Assembly: GCF_021735935.1 (NCBI RefSeq)
Contig: NZ_WMDZ01000001.1
Location: 1,240,001 to 1,304,000 of the forward strand
Length of the DNA: 64,000 nt
Source of the DNA: Sulfitobacter sp. M39
Lineage (GTDB): Bacteria > Pseudomonadota > Alphaproteobacteria > Rhodobacterales > Rhodobacteraceae
Direction of reading: 5' to 3'
Shown: piece by piece, positions 29,461 through 43,118 of the stretch
Numbering within the stretch: the stretch's first letter is position 1
How the letters are laid out: every line of letters starts with the position of its first letter
Program-made: the position numbers and the translations under genes
The notes under the pieces: model-generated
Database searches by the model: none
The model's input: only the letters and a program-made list of their open reading frames with translations
What the model was told of the DNA's origin: nothing

Positions 29461-29810
29461 CCGTTTGATTTGTTAGCGGATGATTGGATCCGAGAATTGA
29501 CCTGAGGTAGCGGGCGACAAGTCGGGCTAACTTGGAGGTAGTTGATGTAGATACACAGCCGCGTGAATTCTTCGGTTGAGCCCAGATAAAAGGGGTGATT
29601 ACCCTGCCGAATGGCTGCTATTGTCCAATAGTGGACCAACACTTCGCAATCGCAGCGAATGTCTGGTTTCCGCCCTTTCAGCACGCGCGCTAAATACAGT
29701 GTTTACATCCAGCTGCATCGGGTTTCTGCCCAAAGTCGTCTCGTAGTGCTACGGATTATGCTACTGCGAATATCGTGGCGCTGCGGTGCGGTCTGTGAGA
29801 CGTTCCAAGT
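29461..29810. other. Gene-free stretch
   Basis: No gene is convincing; a minus-strand open frame (29457-29684) has no start signal. Confidence 0.4.
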
Positions 29811-30533
29811 ATGATCGAATACCAAACTCTCGCTGACGGCCATCACGACCTCCTACGGTCACCGCTGCTACGGGCTGCTCTACTAACTCTGCGATATACG
29901 CAGGAACATGGACCGATAGGGATCACCAAAAACAAGGCGTTCAAGCGTACGTTCGTTCAATGGGCTGTACGGAATTTTGACTGGCCAGGAGAAGGTGCGG
30001 ATGACGTGTTCCGTTATCAAAGGGTAATCAACGAAGCTGACTTCGCCCCGCTCGAAGTGCTGCACTTCCTGCTGATTGAATTACGCCTTGGTGGCCACTT
30101 TAAAGACGAGTTCCGGCTCACCAAGCGCGGCAAAGAGTTGGCCCAATCGCCCGGGCGCTTATTTGTCGAATTGATCCCGTATTTTGTACACGAGGTCGAT
30201 CACACCTCTTATGCGCGCTTTGATGACCAACCCTTCGGGAATTGGGATGTATGGATGAATGTGATCAGCGTAGAGGCCGATCACGGCATAAGCGACGTTG
30301 CCTTATACCAAAAGTTCTATGGTGAACCGGAGAGTGATCGCAATGCTGCCAGGCGGGACATATACGCCTTTAAGGCCTGCGTGTTGCGACCGCTTGAATG
30401 GGCTGGACTGCTGATGTCGACCCACGAGCAGGGCAGGGAGATGCGCGCTATCCATGTGTTTAAAAGCCCTCTTTGGCGCAGTGTTTTGAAGTTAGGCACT
30501 GACGATATGCTTCAGTCGGTACCCTTGCAGTGA
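29811..30533 (+). CDS. Conserved-looking protein of unknown function
   Basis: A 240-residue cytoplasmic protein with helical segments and a winged-helix-like feel ('LEVLHFLLIELRLGGHFKDEFRLTKRGKELA' near 80-115, resembling a helix-turn-helix followed by a wing). No catalytic motif and no membrane helix. It ends 123 bases before the IS3 remnant. I cannot assign a function; a DNA-binding or defence role is only a guess. Confidence 0.5.
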   Translation: MIEYQTLADGHHDLLRSPLLRAALLTLRYTQEHGPIGITKNKAFKRTFVQWAVRNFDWPGEGADDVFRYQRVINEADFAPLEVLHFLLIELRLGGHFKDEFRLTKRGKELAQSPGRLFVELIPYFVHEVDHTSYARFDDQPFGNWDVWMNVISVEADHGISDVALYQKFYGEPESDRNAARRDIYAFKACVLRPLEWAGLLMSTHEQGREMRAIHVFKSPLWRSVLKLGTDDMLQSVPLQ

Positions 30534-30656
30534 GGTGCTCTTCACATTCTGTAAGCACGGCAGGGGCTTAGGGCGCTACCCACCATCGTTGTGAAGCCGG
30601 CCTCCAACACGGCATATGGCCCTGGCAGTCGCTCTGTCGCCGTGAAGTAGGCTGCT

Positions 30657-31795
30657 GTGGTCAGGCTATATAGCCGTCAAGAAAGTGCCCAAGCCTTGGC
30701 GGAAAAGTTCGGAGTTAGCTGGCCGACGCCCTATGCTTGGAAAACTCAGATTCTTGGCCTGGAGGCTCCTGCCATGATGAAACGCAAGAAGAGTGCCCTT
30801 CCCCCAGAACTCGAAGGGTTGGAGCGTCAGCGCGAAGCCCTGCAGCGCGACATCCGCGAGCTCCAGAATGAGCATGATCTTCTCAAGACTGCGAGCGAAA
30901 TGAATAAAGGATCTTGGCGGCGATCTGCGGAACCTGAGCAATCGGGAAAAGACCATGCTCATTGTAGCTCTAAAAAACCGGTATAGGACGCTGGCGCTAT
31001 TGGCTCGGCTCGGTCTCGCGCGCAGCACTTACTTTTACCACCGCGCTCGCATGAATCTGGAAGATAAGTATCTTTCTATTCGACAGGCCATGAAGGTTGC
31101 TTTCGAAAGCAACCATCGCTGCTACGGGTACCGCCGCCTCAAAGCATATATGACGCGGGAATTCATCTTGATCTCCGAGAAAGTGGTGCGGCGCTTGATG
31201 AAACAGGAATCTCTGTTCGTCCCAAAGCCGAAGCGGCGGCGTTACAGCTCATATCTGGGAGAGTTCAGCCCAGCGCCGGAGAATATCATCGACCGGGAAT
31301 TCCAGGCAGCAGCGCCAAATGAGAAATGGCTAACCGATATCACAGAGTTCCACATCCGAGCAGGTAAAGTCTATCTTTCCCCGATCATTGATTACTTCGA
31401 CGGCCTCGTCATAAGTTGGACCATAGGGACCAGCTCGGATGCCGACCTTGTAAATACCATGCTTGATGCAACGGTAGAGCCCATCGCTGACAGCGAAGCG
31501 CGGCCAATCGCCAACAGCGATCGCGGAGGCCACTATCGCTGGCCTGACTGGCTGGAACGTATCGACGCAGCGACGCTCGATGTCACGAAAGGCGAGCTCG
31601 CAGGACAATCCCGCATGTGAAGGCTTCTGTGGACGCCTGAAGATTAAGTTCTTCTATCCTCGCGATTGGCGAGCCTTCACCTTGGCCCAGTTTATTGACG
31701 AGGTTGATGCCTAAATCCGCCGGTACAACGAAACACGCATCAAGATGTCTCTTGGTGGCAGAGGCCCGATCGAATAACGTAAAAGCCTCGGTCTT
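30657..31795 (+). pseudogene. IS3-family element remnant (orfA and orfB, disrupted)
   Basis: orfA (30657-30986) reads 'SAQALAEKFGVSWPTPYAWKTQ', the N-terminal HTH of IS3-type proteins; orfB begins in another frame near 30900-30955 ('NREKTMLIVALKNRYRTLALLARLGLARSTYFYHRAR') and continues through 'HRCYGYRRLKAYM' and the DDE core (Asp in 'WLTDITEF', Asp in 'SDRGGHY'). The frame breaks near 31615; the third acid (CEGFFGRLK) and the tail 'RRYNETRIKMSLGG' continue in another frame with stops. It is therefore inactive. No inverted ends or target duplication were found, and the limits are approximate. Its right side abuts the 156-bp tandem array. Confidence 0.8.
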
Positions 31796-31868
31796 ATGCC
31801 GTGAAAACAGTCCAAGTTTTTGTCCGCACCCCCACCGGGCAGTGCTCAGTGACAATCAACATGCTGGC

Positions 31869-33180
31869 ATTCACCGATCTTCTCAGCTGCCTGCGCGGCA
31901 GCTCATCGAACGCAGTCTTGGATGAAGATGGGGTCAACTGACAAAACAGCAAAACTCCATCTTCGCGACTGCCTATTCGGCAGCTCATTTCAGGCCCCGT
32001 TACCGGGTCGTCAGGTTTTCTGACATTCACCGTTCTTCTCAGCTGCCTGCGCGGCAGCTCATCGACCGAAATCTTGGATGAAGATGGGATCAACTGACAA
32101 AACAGCAAAACTCCATCTTCGCGACTGCCTATTCGGCAGCTCATTTCAGGCCCCGTTACCGGGTCGTCAGGCTTGCTGACATTCACCGTTCTTCTCAACT
32201 GCCTGCGCGGCAGCTCATCGACCGCAGTCTTGGATGAAGATGGGGTCAACTGACAAAACAGCAAAACTCCATCTTCGCGACTGCCTATTCGGCAGCTCAT
32301 TTCAGGCCCCGTTACCGGGTCGTCAGGCTTGCTGACATTCACCGTTCTTCTCAGCTGCCTGCGCGGCAGCTCATCGACCGAAGTCTTGGATGAAGATGGG
32401 GTCAACTGACAAAACAGCAAAACTCCATCTTCGCGACTGCCTATTCGGCAGCTCATTTCAGGCCCCGTTACCGGGTCGTCAGGCTTGCTGACATTCACCG
32501 TTCTTCTCAGCTGCCTGCGCGGCAGCTCATCGACCGAAGTCTTGGATGAAGATGGGGTCAACTGACAAAACAGCAAAACTCCATCTTCGCGACTGCCTAT
32601 TCGGCAGCTCATTTCAGGCCCCGTTACCGGGTCGTCAGGCTTGCTGACATTCACCGTTCTTCTCAGCTGCCTGCGCGGCAGCTCATCGACCGAAGTCTTG
32701 GATGAAGATGGGGTCAACTGACAAAACAGCAAAACTCCATCTTCGCGACTGCCTATTCGGCAGCTCATTTCAGGCCCCGTTGCCGGGTCGTCAGGTTTTC
32801 TGACATTCACCGATCTTCTCAGCTGCCTGCGCGGCAGCTCATCGACCGAAGCCTTGGATAAAGATGGGGTCAACTAACAAAACAGCAAAACTCCATCTTC
32901 GCGACTGCCTATTCGGCAGCTCATTTCAGGCCCCGTTGCCGGGTCGTCAGGTTTTCTGACATTCACCGATCTTCTCAGCTGCCTGCGCGGCAGCTCATCG
33001 ACCGAAGCCTTGGATAAAGATGGGGTCAACTAACAAAACAGCAAAACTCCATCTTCGCGACTGCCTATTCGGCAGCTCATTTCAGGCCCCGTTGCCGGGT
33101 CGTCAGGTTTTCTGACATTCACCGATCTTCTCAGCTGTCTACGTGGCAGCTCATAGACCGGAGCCTGGGATGAAGGTGGG
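31869..33180. repeat. 156-bp tandem repeat array, eight full units plus a degenerate ninth
   Basis: The string ATTCACCG recurs at 31869, 32025, 32181, 32337, 32493, 32649, 32805, 32961 and 33117, always 156 bases apart. The inner units are nearly identical; the outermost are more diverged, and the ninth is degraded. Each unit has two hairpins with the stem CTGCC/GGCAG and different loops (TGCGC at 31887-31901, TATTC at 31969-31983 on the plus strand), an inverted repeat GAAGATGG/CCATCTTC (31924-31964), and GTCAG/CTGAC whose loop varies (GCTTG or GTTTT) while the stem is kept. Because 156 is 52 codons, an open frame (31794-32873, minus) runs through it, but I do not count it as a gene. Confidence 0.95.
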
Positions 33181-33889
33181 ATCGACTGGTAATACAGCAA
33201 AATCCCAGAGGGACCCGCTATATTAGGGGTGAGGGCTGGAGCAACGCCACATAGATATCAGTATTGACTAATCGGCGATCCTGCTCCCAAGTCACGGTAA
33301 ATTGCGGTGCTAATGCACTGTGGAAACAACGAATTTCGTGGTCAGATATCATGTCTGTGTCCTCTTGCTTGAGTAGATCGTATTGCACAACCAAAAGTTT
33401 AAAAGGCTATAATTGAAAAGCGTGGAAGCATGACGGTACTACCAAAAACCTTGGCCTATTTCAGAATTTGAATGTCAGGTTTATACCAATCATGCACTCC
33501 GAACTCATACGCAGCGAATGTTGTCAAACCGCCCAAACTGTTTGGATGGATGCGAACGGTCAATACCGTACATTGAACGAGCACTTTCTCGTTTGGGGGC
33601 ATCACCCACGAAGTAGATCAGGATCAACTCCGCTCACACTAAAAAAGACTTAGCTTATGAACCCTACACAGCTTAGAGCGCGGCTCGCGTAATTCGATTT
33701 TTCTGAAGGTGTTGACTCAACCCCTGGGTGCGACCAGCATACGACTGGGTATGTTGTCACTTGGTTGCGCCGGCCTTGAAAAGATCGCAAAGGGAAAAAA
33801 AGAGTTGCGATTAAAATTCGGTGGGTTGGAGATGCGGCAGGATTAATTTGTGGTCAGCGACCCAGCAAACAATTGCTTGGAGGAGCATC
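33181..33889. other. Gene-free stretch after the tandem array
   Basis: No gene, RNA or further array unit is visible. An open frame at 33468-33653 lacks a start signal or family resemblance. Confidence 0.45.
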
Positions 33890-36574: not shown

Positions 36575-36842
36575 TCCATGACCCCAATCTCTAATAGAGC
36601 GTGATATTTACCGCTGAACTTATCAACAGAAAAACTGCGGAAATGTGTTCCTTTGGGGGAATTTCATCAGCAACACAATCAAGATTCCAGCCAAATCCTT
36701 CGAAGGGTATGAAATCCGGCTAATCCGATAAATACCTTGTCGACTGAGACGTCCAGTTTAGTACCATCGTAGTCTGACGTCAGGCTCTTGTCCGCATCGG
36801 CCCAAACCAAACTTGACATCGGGCAGGTGAATCGCAGATTGA

Positions 36843-36857
36843 GAACAAATAGTGAAC
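36843..36857. promoter_or_regulatory. SOS box (LexA site) of the umuDC operon
   Basis: GAAC-AAATAGT-GAAC matches the alphaproteobacterial LexA consensus GTTC-N7-GTTC read on the other strand. It lies 13 bases before the umuD ATG, so bound LexA would block transcription or initiation. Confidence 0.85.
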
Positions 36858-36870
36858 AATTAGGATTCCC

Positions 36871-37305
36871 ATGCCAGTTTACCCAGTTGATGGACCCGTC
36901 CACATACCATCCCAATCTGTTCGAATTGTCAGCACACCAGTCAGCGCCGGTTTTCCTTCGCCAGCTGGAGACGATCTCGAAGACGAGATTGACCCTATGG
37001 CCTGGGTAGTTCGGCATCCTTCATCCACATTTTGGTGGCGCGTAGAAGGGGACTGCCTGTGGGACGCTGGGATACGTGATGGTGACATCATCGCTGTAGA
37101 CCGTGCTGGCAAGCGACGCATCGGGAGAGCCGTGCTGGCCGTGGTAGATGGTGCTGTCACAGCAAAGATCCTGCGTAAGCGTGGTGACAGGTACTACCTC
37201 GCACCTGCGAATAGTCAGGAGCAGTTCCCCGACGTCGAACTAACTGAGGATAGTGAAATTTGGGGCGTCATCGCTGGTGTTGTCCGGCGTTACGACTTGG
37301 CATGA
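36871..37305 (+). CDS. umuD: UmuD-like protein with Cys at the catalytic Ser position
   Basis: A 144-residue S24-type protein. The self-cleavage site is kept as A26-G27 in 'SAGFPSPA', and the general-base Lys is K99. The residue that is Ser in 'GDSM' of UmuD/LexA is Cys62 ('EGDCLWDAGIRDGD'), with Met also replaced by Leu. In UmuD the serine attacks the peptide bond after RecA contact, giving UmuD' for Pol V. A cysteine nucleophile could still act, perhaps more slowly, or cleavage may be lost. AGGA sits before the ATG, and an SOS box overlaps the upstream region. The stop overlaps the umuC start (ATGA). Confidence 0.88.
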   Translation: MPVYPVDGPVHIPSQSVRIVSTPVSAGFPSPAGDDLEDEIDPMAWVVRHPSSTFWWRVEGDCLWDAGIRDGDIIAVDRAGKRRIGRAVLAVVDGAVTAKILRKRGDRYYLAPANSQEQFPDVELTEDSEIWGVIAGVVRRYDLA

Positions 37306-38573
37306 AGCGGCCTGTAGCCATTAGCGACAGCGCGAACTTCTATGTGAGCGCTGAGAGGATATTTGATCCAACGCTAAAGAACGTCCCGGTGATTGTTCTA
37401 TCCAATAACGACGGCTGCGCTATAGCGCGCAGCGATGAGGCCAAGGCCTTGGGGATCAAGATGGGCACTCCGCTGCATCACATTCGCGAAAAGGTTGATG
37501 CTCATGGTATCCGCGTCTTCAGCTCGAACTACACCCTCTATGGTGATATCTCTCGTCGGGTGGTTGAGGTCTACGAAGACTTCACGCCAAACGTCGAGAT
37601 CTATTCCATCGATGAATGCTTCCTCGACTTCGTCGGGTTCAAGGACCGCACTGCACATGCCATGGCGCTGCGTGCAGCGGTCCTAAGAAGAGTAGGGGTG
37701 CCAGTACGTATTGGCATCGCGCCCACCAAGACCCTTGCGAAATGTGCGAACGATATCGCCAAGAAGAACCCCATTTTTGCAGGGGTCTTGGATATGATGG
37801 ATGAGAGCCTTGCGCGCTGGCTGCTACCGCGTGTGCCAGTCGGGGACATCTGGGGCGTTGGTCGCAAGACCACCGACAAGTTGAAGGCCCTGGGTGTACA
37901 CACGGCAGCCGATCTTCGTGATCTGCCAATCCGGCAGGCACGGGCTGTTGGTACTGTGGTGCTGGAGAGGATCGTATTGGAGCTACAGGGTGAGGCCTGC
38001 CTCGCTTTTGAGGACGTAGAGCCACAGCGCAAAGGTATGGCTGTAACACGATCAGCAGGCACTCCGATGACAGACTTCGACACGCTGTTCCAGGCGATTA
38101 CCGCGCACGCATCACGGGGCGCTGAAAAGCTGCGCCAGCACGGTTTGGTCGCTGGCACGCTGACTGTGTTCTTTCACACCAATAAGCACCGGCCAGATCG
38201 CCCTCAGTATACCGCATCCAGAACAACCCGCATGACCCCGATGTCGTCAGATACCTTCGATCTCGTTGAAGCGGCTCGGCACTGCGCGGAAGCCGGTTGG
38301 CCGAAGTCGGACGCTAAAAGCTATGGCTTCACCAAGGCTGGTATCATGCTGAATGACCTGGTGCGGTTCGAAGATCGTCCTCAAACGCTCTTCGACCAAG
38401 CGCGTCCGAAATCACCGGCGCTGATGAAGGCTCTGGATGACGTGAATGATCGGTTTGGGAAGAAGACGATGGTTCTGGCCAGCGAAGGTAAGAACCAAAC
38501 GTGGCGTCTTCGCGCAGATCATCGGAGCCCGCGCTATACCACGCGAATGGAAGACCTGCCGGTGGTGAGATAG
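37302..38573 (+). CDS. umuC: UmuC-like Y-family translesion polymerase subunit
   Basis: A 423-residue Y-family polymerase. The catalytic acids are in place: Asp9 ('AISDSANFYVS'), Asp104 and Glu105 ('YSIDECFLD'). The helix-hairpin-helix region 'DIWGVGRKTTDKLKALGVHTAADL' and the C-terminal little-finger and UmuC tail ('RFGKKTMVLASEG') are present. Instead of the usual 'DCNNFYVSCE' it reads 'DSANFYVSAE'. It starts inside the umuD stop codon, as in Pol V operons. Expected role: error-prone bypass after SOS induction. Location in the mobile region fits plasmid-type umuDC (rumAB-like) pairs. Confidence 0.92.
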   Translation: MKRPVAISDSANFYVSAERIFDPTLKNVPVIVLSNNDGCAIARSDEAKALGIKMGTPLHHIREKVDAHGIRVFSSNYTLYGDISRRVVEVYEDFTPNVEIYSIDECFLDFVGFKDRTAHAMALRAAVLRRVGVPVRIGIAPTKTLAKCANDIAKKNPIFAGVLDMMDESLARWLLPRVPVGDIWGVGRKTTDKLKALGVHTAADLRDLPIRQARAVGTVVLERIVLELQGEACLAFEDVEPQRKGMAVTRSAGTPMTDFDTLFQAITAHASRGAEKLRQHGLVAGTLTVFFHTNKHRPDRPQYTASRTTRMTPMSSDTFDLVEAARHCAEAGWPKSDAKSYGFTKAGIMLNDLVRFEDRPQTLFDQARPKSPALMKALDDVNDRFGKKTMVLASEGKNQTWRLRADHRSPRYTTRMEDLPVVR

Positions 38574-38656
38574 GGGAGCGAAACGGCTTGTCTTAAGGTT
38601 GAGCCGTACTCTCACATAGCTATCTGTATGTAATAAAGCTGACGACCTCTAACCGG

Positions 38657-39890: not shown

Positions 39891-41147
39891 ATGTCAGAAC
39901 CTTTCAAGCCGAAGACCGTCGTCGATTTAAAGCGTATGACGCGCTCAGATATCATCGCTTTATACAAACACTGTATGAGAGCGACCGGACAAGACGATCA
40001 CATCATCAAATCTCAAACCAAGGACAACAAATGGCTCATTGGAGACGACACCAACTTTCTGAGTGTTGTTGACACCTACATTCGGATCCAAGGAGCGACG
40101 ATTGACAAACGGAATGTAAAATCGGCGACAGCTTTGGTGCTTCAGGCGAGCCCAGAATACTTCCGACCAGAATTTCACAGGGATGACCCTGAGGGCTTCG
40201 GGAAGTATGATACCCAAAAACTCGATGATTGGGTGTTGGCGAATGTTAAATGGCTCAAAAACACCTTTGGAAGCGACTGCATCGCAGCTCATCTTCACGT
40301 TGATGAACGTACTCCGCATATTCATGCGGTAATTGTCCCAATGTTCGAAAAGGCACCAACCATGCCAAAGAATAAACGCAAGGGCGAGACGCAAGCGCAC
40401 TTTGACCTTCGGGTCGAACGAGCCAAGAAGAAAAAGGGGCGGAAAGTGGTGTCGCATCACAAGCACTACCTCTTTGGCGCGGGCCGAAAAAGCTATGAAA
40501 AAGTTGTCGACTCATATGCGGCCGCGGTTAAGCATCTTGGTATCGTGAGGTCTGAGCGAGGGTCGAAGGCGACACCGACAACGAAGCAAGAGTGGGCGCG
40601 ACTACTCTACAAGAAGTCGAAAGAAATAGAGCAAAACGTGATCGGCATGCACAAGCGCCAAAGGTTGGAAGACGCAAGCTTTGAAATCGGGGTGGCAGCG
40701 CTGATGGACGACAAAATTCGATACGCTGAAGCAAAGGATGGAAGGGAGGAGGGGCTTTTGCCGTCTACAAATTGGCCGCAGGAAAAACATGAGCAGGACG
40801 AGATCAAATCAGGAGTTAAGCCGGCTAAAGCTCGGATCGTCGCGTTTGCGAAAAAGATCAGAGATTTTACCAACTCTTCGTTTGAAAAGGCGAAGAAGCG
40901 CGTCTTCGAGATGCTCAAAGCCGTTGAAAGACGCGAGGCCGCTGTGAAGGCCAAAGAGCTCGAGCTTGCGGAGCGCGAAAAAGCTCTTGGTCTTATAGAA
41001 GGCATCGACGACACATGGTTCGAGGACGGGGAGATGAGCGAAGCAAACGAACGGACCCTCCGCGAAAGCGGCATCATTCAGGACCAGATACAGCATCAGC
41101 CGACTCTTGAAGTCCGAAAGGAATTCGTAAGGGTGCAGGTACGTTGA
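39891..41147 (+). CDS. MobV-type relaxase (Pre/Mob mobilisation protein)
   Basis: A 418-residue DNA-nicking relaxase of the MobV group. The metal-binding motif 'HLHVDERTPHIH' lies at residues 134-145. Near the N-terminus 'LYKHCMRATGQDDH' may correspond to the first conserved motif, in a divergent form. The end has a coiled-coil-like stretch ('AVERREAAVKAKELELAEREKALG', about 340-365). It would nick at an oriT and lead a single strand into a conjugation system supplied by another element. AGGAGAACGCA precedes the ATG. The ParB-ParA pair follows on the same strand, so these form a mobilisation/stability module. Confidence 0.85.
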   Translation: MSEPFKPKTVVDLKRMTRSDIIALYKHCMRATGQDDHIIKSQTKDNKWLIGDDTNFLSVVDTYIRIQGATIDKRNVKSATALVLQASPEYFRPEFHRDDPEGFGKYDTQKLDDWVLANVKWLKNTFGSDCIAAHLHVDERTPHIHAVIVPMFEKAPTMPKNKRKGETQAHFDLRVERAKKKKGRKVVSHHKHYLFGAGRKSYEKVVDSYAAAVKHLGIVRSERGSKATPTTKQEWARLLYKKSKEIEQNVIGMHKRQRLEDASFEIGVAALMDDKIRYAEAKDGREEGLLPSTNWPQEKHEQDEIKSGVKPAKARIVAFAKKIRDFTNSSFEKAKKRVFEMLKAVERREAAVKAKELELAEREKALGLIEGIDDTWFEDGEMSEANERTLRESGIIQDQIQHQPTLEVRKEFVRVQVR

Positions 41148-41493
41148 GGTCACGGCATTCCGTGACATATCGCGTATGTAAGGCCCGAGACCCTAATACT
41201 TCAGACCAGTCGGCAGATTATATGTCCAACCAAATTAAGTTGACCTACTGCGGATGTGCTCGCAGGGCGGCTAAAACGTGCGGTGCCGCCGGTTTCAAGT
41301 AACCGCGCTGGTCTTAACCGATATTTTGCGGATCACGCGATGCCAAGGTGCTTCCCCAAGAAGAGAAATGCCTATTTCGTCTTAACAGATTTCCGCGCCG
41401 TATAAACGAACCAATCTCCTTTTTGAGATGCTGACGGGCCATTGTTCATCATTGGTCCCTGCGGCTCACAAATTAAACCATGGAGATTGAAAC
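41148..41493. other. Gene-free stretch before parB
   Basis: No gene is supported. Short inverted patches occur, but the only strong palindrome of the locus lies inside parB. Confidence 0.4.
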
Positions 41494-42480
41494 GTGACGT
41501 ATCAAAAGACCAAATCCCTTCGCGAGCTTGCCGCAGCCGAGCGCGCCCCAAGCGAAAAGTTGGCAGCTGCCAACTTTTCCGAAACGATATTGGAAATCTC
41601 TCCATACGAGATCGATGACAGCACCGGTATCAGAGACCGATATTCGCATTCTAATCGCGATTTTGATGGCTTGAAGGAAAGCATCGAGCGGAATGGCCAG
41701 CAACAACCCATACTGGTTGGTTCGTGCGACCCGAAAACAGGCAAGTACCCGATAATAGCCGGACGTAATCGACTTCGTGTTGCTTCACTCTTGGGGATCA
41801 GCCTCAAAGCTATTGTGCGACCGATTGACGGTGAAGAGAGGTTGGTGGCGCAGCTGCAAGAAAACATTTCCAGAAGCGATTATACGGTTGGTGACAAGAT
41901 TGGCATCATGATCGAGTTGAAGAAGATGTCCTTCAAGCAGGTTCGCATCGCCGAAATGATGAGTGTCTCGAAAACCGACATCTCAAAGTTACTTGGGTTG
42001 TACGAAAAGTTAGTGGACCTGGCGGGGTCACATGACTTTGCGAGGGCGCTCCTCGCGTCCAAGGCTGGTCGACCCAAATGGCAAAACTTGGCCAAGGCAC
42101 TGGAAGAATTACCGCACGGTTCTCGGAGTAAAATTTGTGAGAAGGTTGTTGAAGATCTTCAGGGTGAATGTGACGCGGATCCAATATCTTTGGCGATATC
42201 GGCTATCAAAGATGAAATGAAAACCTCGCAATCTGTGACCGATTTCCTGCCACTTGAACGATCATACAAGGAAGCGTCAGAGGCCTTGTCAAACGCCACT
42301 TTAAACACGCGCGACCTGTGTGAGTTGAAGTACGAGGGTGATCCTCATGTAAACGCGCTCCTCCAGAAGGCTATTCAGATCGAACACTCGACTTTGAAAG
42401 CAATGATCATCGAACGCTTTGAGGCGCTGGTAGCAAAGTCACTTGGTGCCGCAAAAAACCTTGATCGGGGGATGCAATGA
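41494..42480 (+). CDS. ParB/RepB-like partition protein
   Basis: A 328-residue partition DNA-binding protein. The ParB N-domain with the CTPase-type GRNRLR motif ('AGRNRLRVASLLG', about 90-102) and 'AQLQENISRSDYTVGDK' (box 2) are clear, followed by the HTH ('KQVRIAEMMSVSKTDISKLLGLYEKL'). The C-terminus is a helical dimerisation region. It precedes parA, the reverse of the usual parA-parB order, and overlaps it by ATGA. A 26-bp palindrome of the repABC parS type lies within codons 21-29 of the gene. It probably binds that site and segregates the element when it exists as a circle. Confidence 0.88.
   Translation: MTYQKTKSLRELAAAERAPSEKLAAANFSETILEISPYEIDDSTGIRDRYSHSNRDFDGLKESIERNGQQQPILVGSCDPKTGKYPIIAGRNRLRVASLLGISLKAIVRPIDGEERLVAQLQENISRSDYTVGDKIGIMIELKKMSFKQVRIAEMMSVSKTDISKLLGLYEKLVDLAGSHDFARALLASKAGRPKWQNLAKALEELPHGSRSKICEKVVEDLQGECDADPISLAISAIKDEMKTSQSVTDFLPLERSYKEASEALSNATLNTRDLCELKYEGDPHVNALLQKAIQIEHSTLKAMIIERFEALVAKSLGAAKNLDRGMQ
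41554..41579. promoter_or_regulatory. parS-like 26-bp palindrome within parB
   Basis: The arms GAAAAGTTGGCAG and CTGCCAACTTTTC are exact reverse complements. The central 16 bases, 41559-41574, GTTGGCAGCTGCCAAC, fit the repABC parS consensus GTTNNCNGCNGNNAAC at every fixed position. It lies in codons 21-29 of parB, so nucleation and autoregulation are both plausible. Confidence 0.75.
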
Positions 42481-43118
42481 CCAAGGTTATTAGTTTGGTC
42501 GGTCAGAAGGGCGGTAGCGGAAAATCTACAATTGCAGTTCATCTTGCGATGGAAGCCCTCCTGAAGAAAGAAGGTAGTCAGGTAGCAATTATCGACATGG
42601 ACCCGCAGGGGTCAGTCCTGGAATGGTCTCAAATGCGGGGAGATTCGAACCCTGTGGTGGTTCACGGTACGCCGGATACGCTGAATGATATCTTGGGTCA
42701 GGCCGCTGACGATGGTTTCGACTATGTCGTACTGGATACACCCGGTCGGCGAGATTCAACCCTGGTCGAGCTCGTAGCTGCCAGGTCTGATCTAATTCTA
42801 TTGCCGCTGCGCCCGTCGCTTTTTGACGTGCGCGCTGTCGCGGATACAGTCCGCCTTCTTAGATCCAAAGCCTATAAAATGCGATTTCTGCTGTCTCAAA
42901 CCCCGGCGCGTGGGAACCAAGTGGCAGACACAGAAGCATATTGCGCCAGCGCACACCCGGAAGTAGTGGTCGCTCAATCCAAAATCGGGTACCGAACAGC
43001 ATTTCAAAGCGCTTTGATTGATGGTCGTGGGGTCCAGGAAGCTGGTCGAAGCGGAAGCAAAGGCGCGCTGGAGATAGCAGGCCTATTTGATGAAATACTG
43101 GGCCTGCTGAACAGTTAG
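42477..43118 (+). CDS. ParA-family partition ATPase
   Basis: A 213-residue ATPase of the short ParA type. The deviant Walker A is at residues 11-17 (KGGSGKS), 'IIDMDPQGSVLEW' is the second switch (A'), and 'VLDTPG' is Walker B. It lacks an N-terminal HTH, so it is of the small type Ib-like group, whereas the ParB partner is long. It starts in the ParB stop codon (ATGA). It would drive movement of ParB-parS complexes. No replication gene lies nearby, so a plasmid replicon is not visible in the window. Confidence 0.9.
   Translation: MTKVISLVGQKGGSGKSTIAVHLAMEALLKKEGSQVAIIDMDPQGSVLEWSQMRGDSNPVVVHGTPDTLNDILGQAADDGFDYVVLDTPGRRDSTLVELVAARSDLILLPLRPSLFDVRAVADTVRLLRSKAYKMRFLLSQTPARGNQVADTEAYCASAHPEVVVAQSKIGYRTAFQSALIDGRGVQEAGRSGSKGALEIAGLFDEILGLLNS

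Follow-up and report, generated by a model that had tools for sequence, protein, structure and literature searches.

The window analysed here is a stretch of 64,000 nucleotides from Sulfitobacter sp. M39, and it contains a tandem array of eight full units with cut or decayed ends (31862–33202, − strand). By sequence comparison, the unit is homologous to a single-copy element in another genus of the same family (genome G389), and the two are related by compensated changes in three stems. We estimate a probability of about 0.5 that the array is a folded structured element that selection has maintained in two or more genera, the simplest form being a − strand small RNA. The candidate RNA reads leftward.

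The array has a period of 156 bp and 8.6 copies, with 96% matches and 0% indels (TRF, 64-kb window). The eight full units (31884–33131) align without gaps and vary at 12 of 156 sites. A ninth unit, at the right end, is a decayed half-unit that matches at 58 of its first 71 sites. Inner units are near-identical and outer units diverged. Eight units at 156-bp spacing with a degraded ninth had been described in an earlier note, as had the gradient from centre to edge, and the TRF result and the gap-free alignment confirm that description; the renewal by recombination proposed there fits the homogeneous centre. In the 3.34-Mb genome, the unit is found at this one locus, with all eight of its eight matches inside the array, and three one-mismatch hairpins lie elsewhere in the genome.

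All inverted repeats named previously are present in the unit, and a further hairpin, CCCG/CGGG, is absent from that list. The two CTGCC/GGCAG hairpins (H1 and H2) are distinct, as claimed, but each has one invariant loop across the eight units. Loop variation among the units consists of two co-varying sites in GTCAG/CTGAC and one in CCCG/CGGG. The inverted repeat GAAGATGG/CCATCTTC can pair locally, or alternatively as a closing stem around both CTGCC hairpins. Counted over the whole structure, the closing-stem form shows five two-sided changes and the local form four.

In the proposed structure, each unit would contain a folded domain of ~131 nt, in which a closing stem, CCAUCUUC/GAAGAUGG, would surround the two hairpins and smaller inner hairpins. 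The two hairpins would carry five-base loops (CUGCC-GNNNA-GGCAG). A covariance model (R1) was built from an alignment (A4) of seven window rows and the G389 sequence and was run on 59 sources (311,917 bases), namely the window and 58 of 255 loci. The model, itself built from such units, finds on the − strand domain 1, with closing stem, H1, inner hairpins, and H2 (31957–32087, 165.4 bits), domain 2 (32113–32243, 162.6 bits), domains 3, 4, and 5 (32269–32399, 32425–32555, and 32581–32711, 167.2 bits each; domain 5 is reference row W5-6), domains 6 and 7 (32737–32867 and 32893–33023, 164.3 bits each), and domain 8, whose 5′ part lies inside the decayed ninth unit (33049–33179, 152.9 bits). It also finds the remains of a domain cut by an insertion sequence (IS) element (31862–31931, − strand; model match 31826–31931, 66.6 bits, extending into the IS), the G389 element (107.8 bits), and a copy in genome G432, which is not in the model (83.4 bits, E 6e-21). 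Four other matches, of 19.2 to 12.3 bits, lie in loci fetched by similarity to the element.

The G389 element was found in an order-level search of 390 genomes, which gave two short matches besides the own genome. One of them extends to a full homolog, with a local score of 128, compared with 59 for the best of 300 dinucleotide shuffles and 67 for a yardstick, a viral stretch picked by its hairpin pattern. The other match (L245) lies in an open frame and was judged to be chance. G389 has one copy in the 15.7-kb stretch read, between open frames. The homolog adjoins an open frame of 1749 residues (L253, 9220–14469), which by eye reads like fused RecQ-type and UvrD-type helicases.

Across the closing stem, H1, and H2, four of 20 pairs are changed on both sides in G389 with pairing kept, and no pair is changed on one side only. 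In other words, eight of 40 stem sites differ and form four complete pairs, compared with differences at 21 of 60 unpaired sites. This one divergent sequence supplies every compensated change, and it had been seen before the three stems were picked out; a permutation restricted to these kept stems gives 6e-5, a post hoc value. Among all 29 gap-free pairs, five of six double changes are kept (permutation P=0.00015). The fifth, in H4, adjoins a gap and could reflect misalignment. G389 does not keep H5, has gaps in three of five H4 pairs, and carries its four one-sided changes in H5 and the UNCG stem. In a sequence-only alignment (A2), the closing-stem structure has five two-sided pairs, a number reached by none of 500 shuffles (mean 1.0), and slid versions have at most two. 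The percentage of paired sites (0/500 shuffles) and the covariation score (3/500) agree with the two-sided count; the number of pair types is not above shuffles (438/500). The local GAAGATGG/CCATCTTC pairing gives four two-sided changes (1/500). Between species, pairing is thus kept by compensated changes in three stems against one genus.

Within the array, the covariation check proposed earlier finds no compensated changes among the eight units. Their stems hold two of the 12 variable sites in 58 of 156 positions, not significantly less variable (P=0.108), and their loops hold three of the 12 in 19 positions, not significantly more variable (P=0.165). Read on the + strand, one H1 pair is lost in one unit and one GAAGATGG/CCATCTTC pair in two; read on the − strand, such one-sided changes give G-T pairs in the eight units, and two in unit 9 are broken. 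Within the array, the argument from stems conserved against changing loops is weak. Selection on structure, which had been argued from it, is supported by the G389 homolog and not by that argument.

The main rival is a neutral satellite, which we regard as a serious though less probable explanation: a decayed, dyad-rich piece of a mobile region would have been tandem-duplicated, would be kept alike by unequal crossing-over, and would now be without function, whatever role its ancestor had. Stem conservation within the array is not significant, the array copy number seems to vary, the array sits in an insert with a truncated IS beside an IS21 relic, and it occupies one locus in its own genome. 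A consensus promoter scan of the − strand near the array found no promoter-like site, nor did one of the G389 locus; the consensus says little for this group. Against neutrality stand the four compensated and zero one-sided changes in three stems relative to another genus, and the eight full-length domains that score >150 bits and fold well.

The folds themselves favor the − strand in G389. The 139-nt stretch of the window around domain 5 (32577–32715) has a fold z of −3.88 on the − strand and −3.66 on the + strand, and domain 8 has a z of −4.79 (−), with 0/200 shuffles as good in each case. The G389 domain reaches −5.18 on the − strand (0/200) and −2.27 on the + strand (6/200). The domain boundaries were set only once the fold had been seen. 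For one unit taken in a different register, the z values are −3.15 and −3.74, and a longer, 224-nt G389 stretch is unremarkable (−2.18 on the − and −0.98 on the + strand, with strand names following the array). The loop sequences on the − strand are GCGCA, GAAUA and GAACA, GUAA or GCAA, and U-N-CG. To our reading, they resemble stable tetraloop and pentaloop classes, and their variable positions are those that such classes presumably tolerate. The − strand was chosen for the candidate RNA from the modelled fold and the loops. The element probably works as RNA rather than DNA, and the array may be transcribed.

Alternatively, selection could act on pairing at the DNA level, in a single strand or a cruciform, with the element serving, say, as a recombination site or protein-binding site able to spread among genomes. 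The copies in the own genome (G000), G432, and G389 are at unrelated places, two of them adjoining an IS21 3′ end, and both strands fold alike in the window. We consider this unlikely, as the element is not dispersed in many copies and the G389 − strand folds better than its + strand.

The earlier note placed the array next to a dead IS3 copy, and a truncated IS3-type element is indeed located there (30593–31861, + strand), with HTH_21 and rve in a frame at 30955–31620 and 91% identity to an element of genome G404. Its left end is missing: similarity to the G404 element begins only at 30593, 386 bp short of where that element has its inverted end. The right end, which cuts the array, is common to other copies (L181 and L177) and falls at 31861 in the window. 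The array therefore begins exactly at the IS (31862), and this edge sits inside the GTCAG/CTGAC loop. On this mapping, the left edge of the array is not natural. The IS thus appears to have inserted into the array within the GTCAG/CTGAC loop, and the sequence originally to the left appears to be lost.

One insert of 6.2 kb comprises the IS, the array, and the sequence as far as 36772, including a DctP-type gene. The flanks of the insert (29643–30591 and 36773–38582) are only ~20 bp apart in G424, in G413, and in a second copy in the own genome. The insert separates a 240-residue gene from a umuDC-like pair (Peptidase S24 and IMS), and the second copy of this gene and pair is uninterrupted (G000:C1:2236500-2241500; L180). 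Further on in the window (39891–43115), genes for a Mob_Pre relaxase, a ParB_N protein, and a ParA-like protein are consecutive on the chromosome, and we read them as the remains of an integrated mobilisable plasmid or element.

In roseobacter IS21 elements, istB is followed at the element end by a long, imperfect hairpin resembling a terminator (L217, 1495–1548; L218, 1495–1547). A relic of this hairpin lies at the right end of the array (33196–33228, + strand), with local scores of 41 (L218) and 37 (L217), compared with 27 and 29, respectively, for the best of 300 shuffles. Aligned directly with the same place in G432, the relic scores 22, not significant against shuffles (30). G432 in turn matches the IS21-type hairpins of G400 (E 1.5e-8) and G420 (E 4.1e-7). 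Neither the relic at 33196–33228 nor that in G432 is accompanied by an istB match. The unit was also compared, as a possible 3′ end of istB, with 14 elements, and this idea was rejected: the alignments are below the shuffle maximum, except those of G432 with L233 and L242, which cover the terminal hairpin or a coding stretch.

The G432 copy is single (L176:4669-4785) and is 83% identical to the unit over 117 bp. Four of its 20 differences from the unit are in the stems, which make up 40 of the 117 positions (P=0.111), and none is compensated. Compared directly with G389, it scores 62, which is not significant (shuffles up to 68). Its left flank is common to G424 and G405 up to the boundary, and it does not fold well (z −0.89). 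Because of the shared flank and the unremarkable fold, the copy looks like a remnant. By pattern search, G432 is the one genome with the unit among 61 other genomes of the genus, a scarcity that also suits the neutral reading, and the element is known from three genomes only (own, G432, and G389).

A family-level search of 394 genomes with the unit gave two short matches judged to be chance, and missed G389 though it was in the sample. Short matches at L009 and L010 were likewise judged to be chance. The same search with the G432 stretch found the core in the own genome only, the IS21-type hairpin in nine others, and one chance match. With 2 to 9 BLAST candidates scored per genome, these searches test absence weakly, and more homologs probably exist. 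The search of other roseobacter genomes and plasmids suggested earlier thus yielded homologs in G432 and G389, but none in plasmids, where neither the unit nor the G389 element has a match. Plasmid candidates were rejected: two units gave one record, in a kdgD gene (E 3), and the G432 stretch gave ten, of which nine match just the IS21-type hairpin and one (Neorhizobium, E 0.2) was judged to be chance from its position in an apparent coding frame. The array has no match in the phages searched. Twelve phage records obtained with the G389 element (E 0.03 to 4; in tail, portal, and one unannotated stretch) were judged to be chance. In viral contigs, a loose pattern gave 29 matches, none among the best 20 blastn rows, and the two tight matches, scoring 67 and 50 compared with 128 for G389 and 59 reached by 100 plain shuffles, were also judged to be chance. 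In genome contigs, the exact H2 pattern was not found, and the loose hairpin pattern marked at least 116 stretches, in other genera. Most of the loci read (9 + 4) are coding-looking repeats, and three or four look like I-F arrays. In the open-licence literature, we found nothing relevant on tandem repeats in Sulfitobacter, roseobacters, or Rhodobacteraceae, or on Csy4 with GNRA.

An open frame of 359 residues runs through part of the array (31794–32873, − strand), and 156 is divisible by 3, so that a repeat protein with 52 residues per unit is conceivable; a typical unit has no stop in this frame. However, a CAG to TAG change closes the frame in two of eight units, the changes are by eye mostly non-synonymous, and no stretch of the Pfam matches passes alone. 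A protein search, in which 7989 candidates were scored of 5.77 billion sequences, gave one match (P0001), itself an array of the same units without a named source. The frame is not open through the array and was judged not to be coding; we give the repeat protein almost no credence. P0001 has only four units against six in the corresponding part of the window, differs at one residue, and shares the IS-derived tail. By this comparison, it looks like a shorter allele, unless assembly collapsed repeats. Copy-number variation was one part of what had been named as the mark of a neutral satellite, and it seems to occur here, with the reservation that assembly collapse may explain it.

H1 resembles type I-F CRISPR repeats. 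It matches the Rfam model CRISPR-DR4 in all eight full units below threshold (22.4 bits in seven, 19.7 in one; gathering 35), and more weakly in G389 (18.7 bits, E 0.98), and blastn aligns 29 bp of it at 93% with arrays in L051 and L132. I-F-like repeats with a GCGCA loop match H1 over ~29 bp in L051, L074, and L132 (Ramlibacter, Halomonas, and Marinobacterium); repeats were actually read only in L051, with a similar one in L089. The array could on this account be an orphan I-F CRISPR-like array, or a tandem RNA anti-CRISPR decoying Cas6f (Csy4). Type I-F arrays have 28-bp repeats and changing spacers of 32 bp. In the array, by contrast, the spacing between hairpins is 82 and 74 bp and the intervening sequence recurs in every unit, so there are no ~32-bp differing spacers. 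Phage RNAs that mimic I-F repeats are reported to bind Cas6f (PMC10651486). However, Cas6f (PF09618) was found neither in the own genome nor in any of 394 family genomes, Cas1 (PF01867) was not found in the own genome, and control genomes were positive for both. The unit is also absent from the phages and plasmids searched. As neither Cas6f nor Cas1 was found in these searches, we reject the link to I-F function, which we consider very improbable, and the likeness of H1 to I-F repeats is probably convergent. What is shared with CRISPR-DR4 and the phage RNA anti-CRISPR RacrIF1 is the hairpin CUGCC-GNNNA-GGCAG and the sub-threshold model match; the array differs in its constant 156-bp unit, which contains two diverged hairpins, in the lack of changing spacers, and in that none of the cas genes tested was found.

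G389 suggests how the array may have formed. Sequences similar to GATGAAGATGGGGTCAACTGACAAAACAGC, the segment that separates the hairpins of one unit from those of the next, flank the G389 hairpin pair on either side, and such a pair could set off unequal crossing-over. Probably the array originated in this way, by exchange between the two similar segments around the hairpins of the single-copy form, and would then have been homogenised by recombination and truncated later by the IS element. With tandem copies, the RNA dose would rise, or the number of binding hairpins per transcript. We tentatively propose a more specific and distinctly less probable form of the preferred reading of a selected folded element, a new roseobacter RNA family in which one long transcript of eight tandem ~131-nt folded units would be cut at or between the closing stems and would act, unrelated to CRISPR function, as a multivalent sponge for an RNA-binding protein through the G...A pentaloop hairpins.

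As stated earlier, the array corresponds to no known feature type when judged by Rfam gathering thresholds, at which the whole window gives only a tRNA, elsewhere than the array. Like Rfam-type structured RNA candidates, the unit has a multi-branched fold with compensated changes in another genus; unlike them, it reaches no Rfam gathering score and is present eight times in tandem. With minisatellites (VNTR), the array shares head-to-tail units, alike in mid-array, and a seemingly variable copy number, but its unit has a single-copy homolog in another genus, in which the fold is kept. REP/BIME are small dispersed palindromic repeats, intergenic hairpins that are sometimes in tandem. The array shares these hairpins and the tandem arrangement, but occurs at one locus of its own genome and is not dispersed.

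A tandem repeat easily filed as junk can thus consist of conserved folded units. Hairpins like Cas6f substrates, in a family in which no Cas6f was found, are a warning against calling I-F repeats by hairpin likeness alone. With the covariance model of the unit, the question can now be put directly to other genomes. A fold that is single-copy elsewhere but present here in an eight-fold array renewed by recombination would be a natural dosage experiment.
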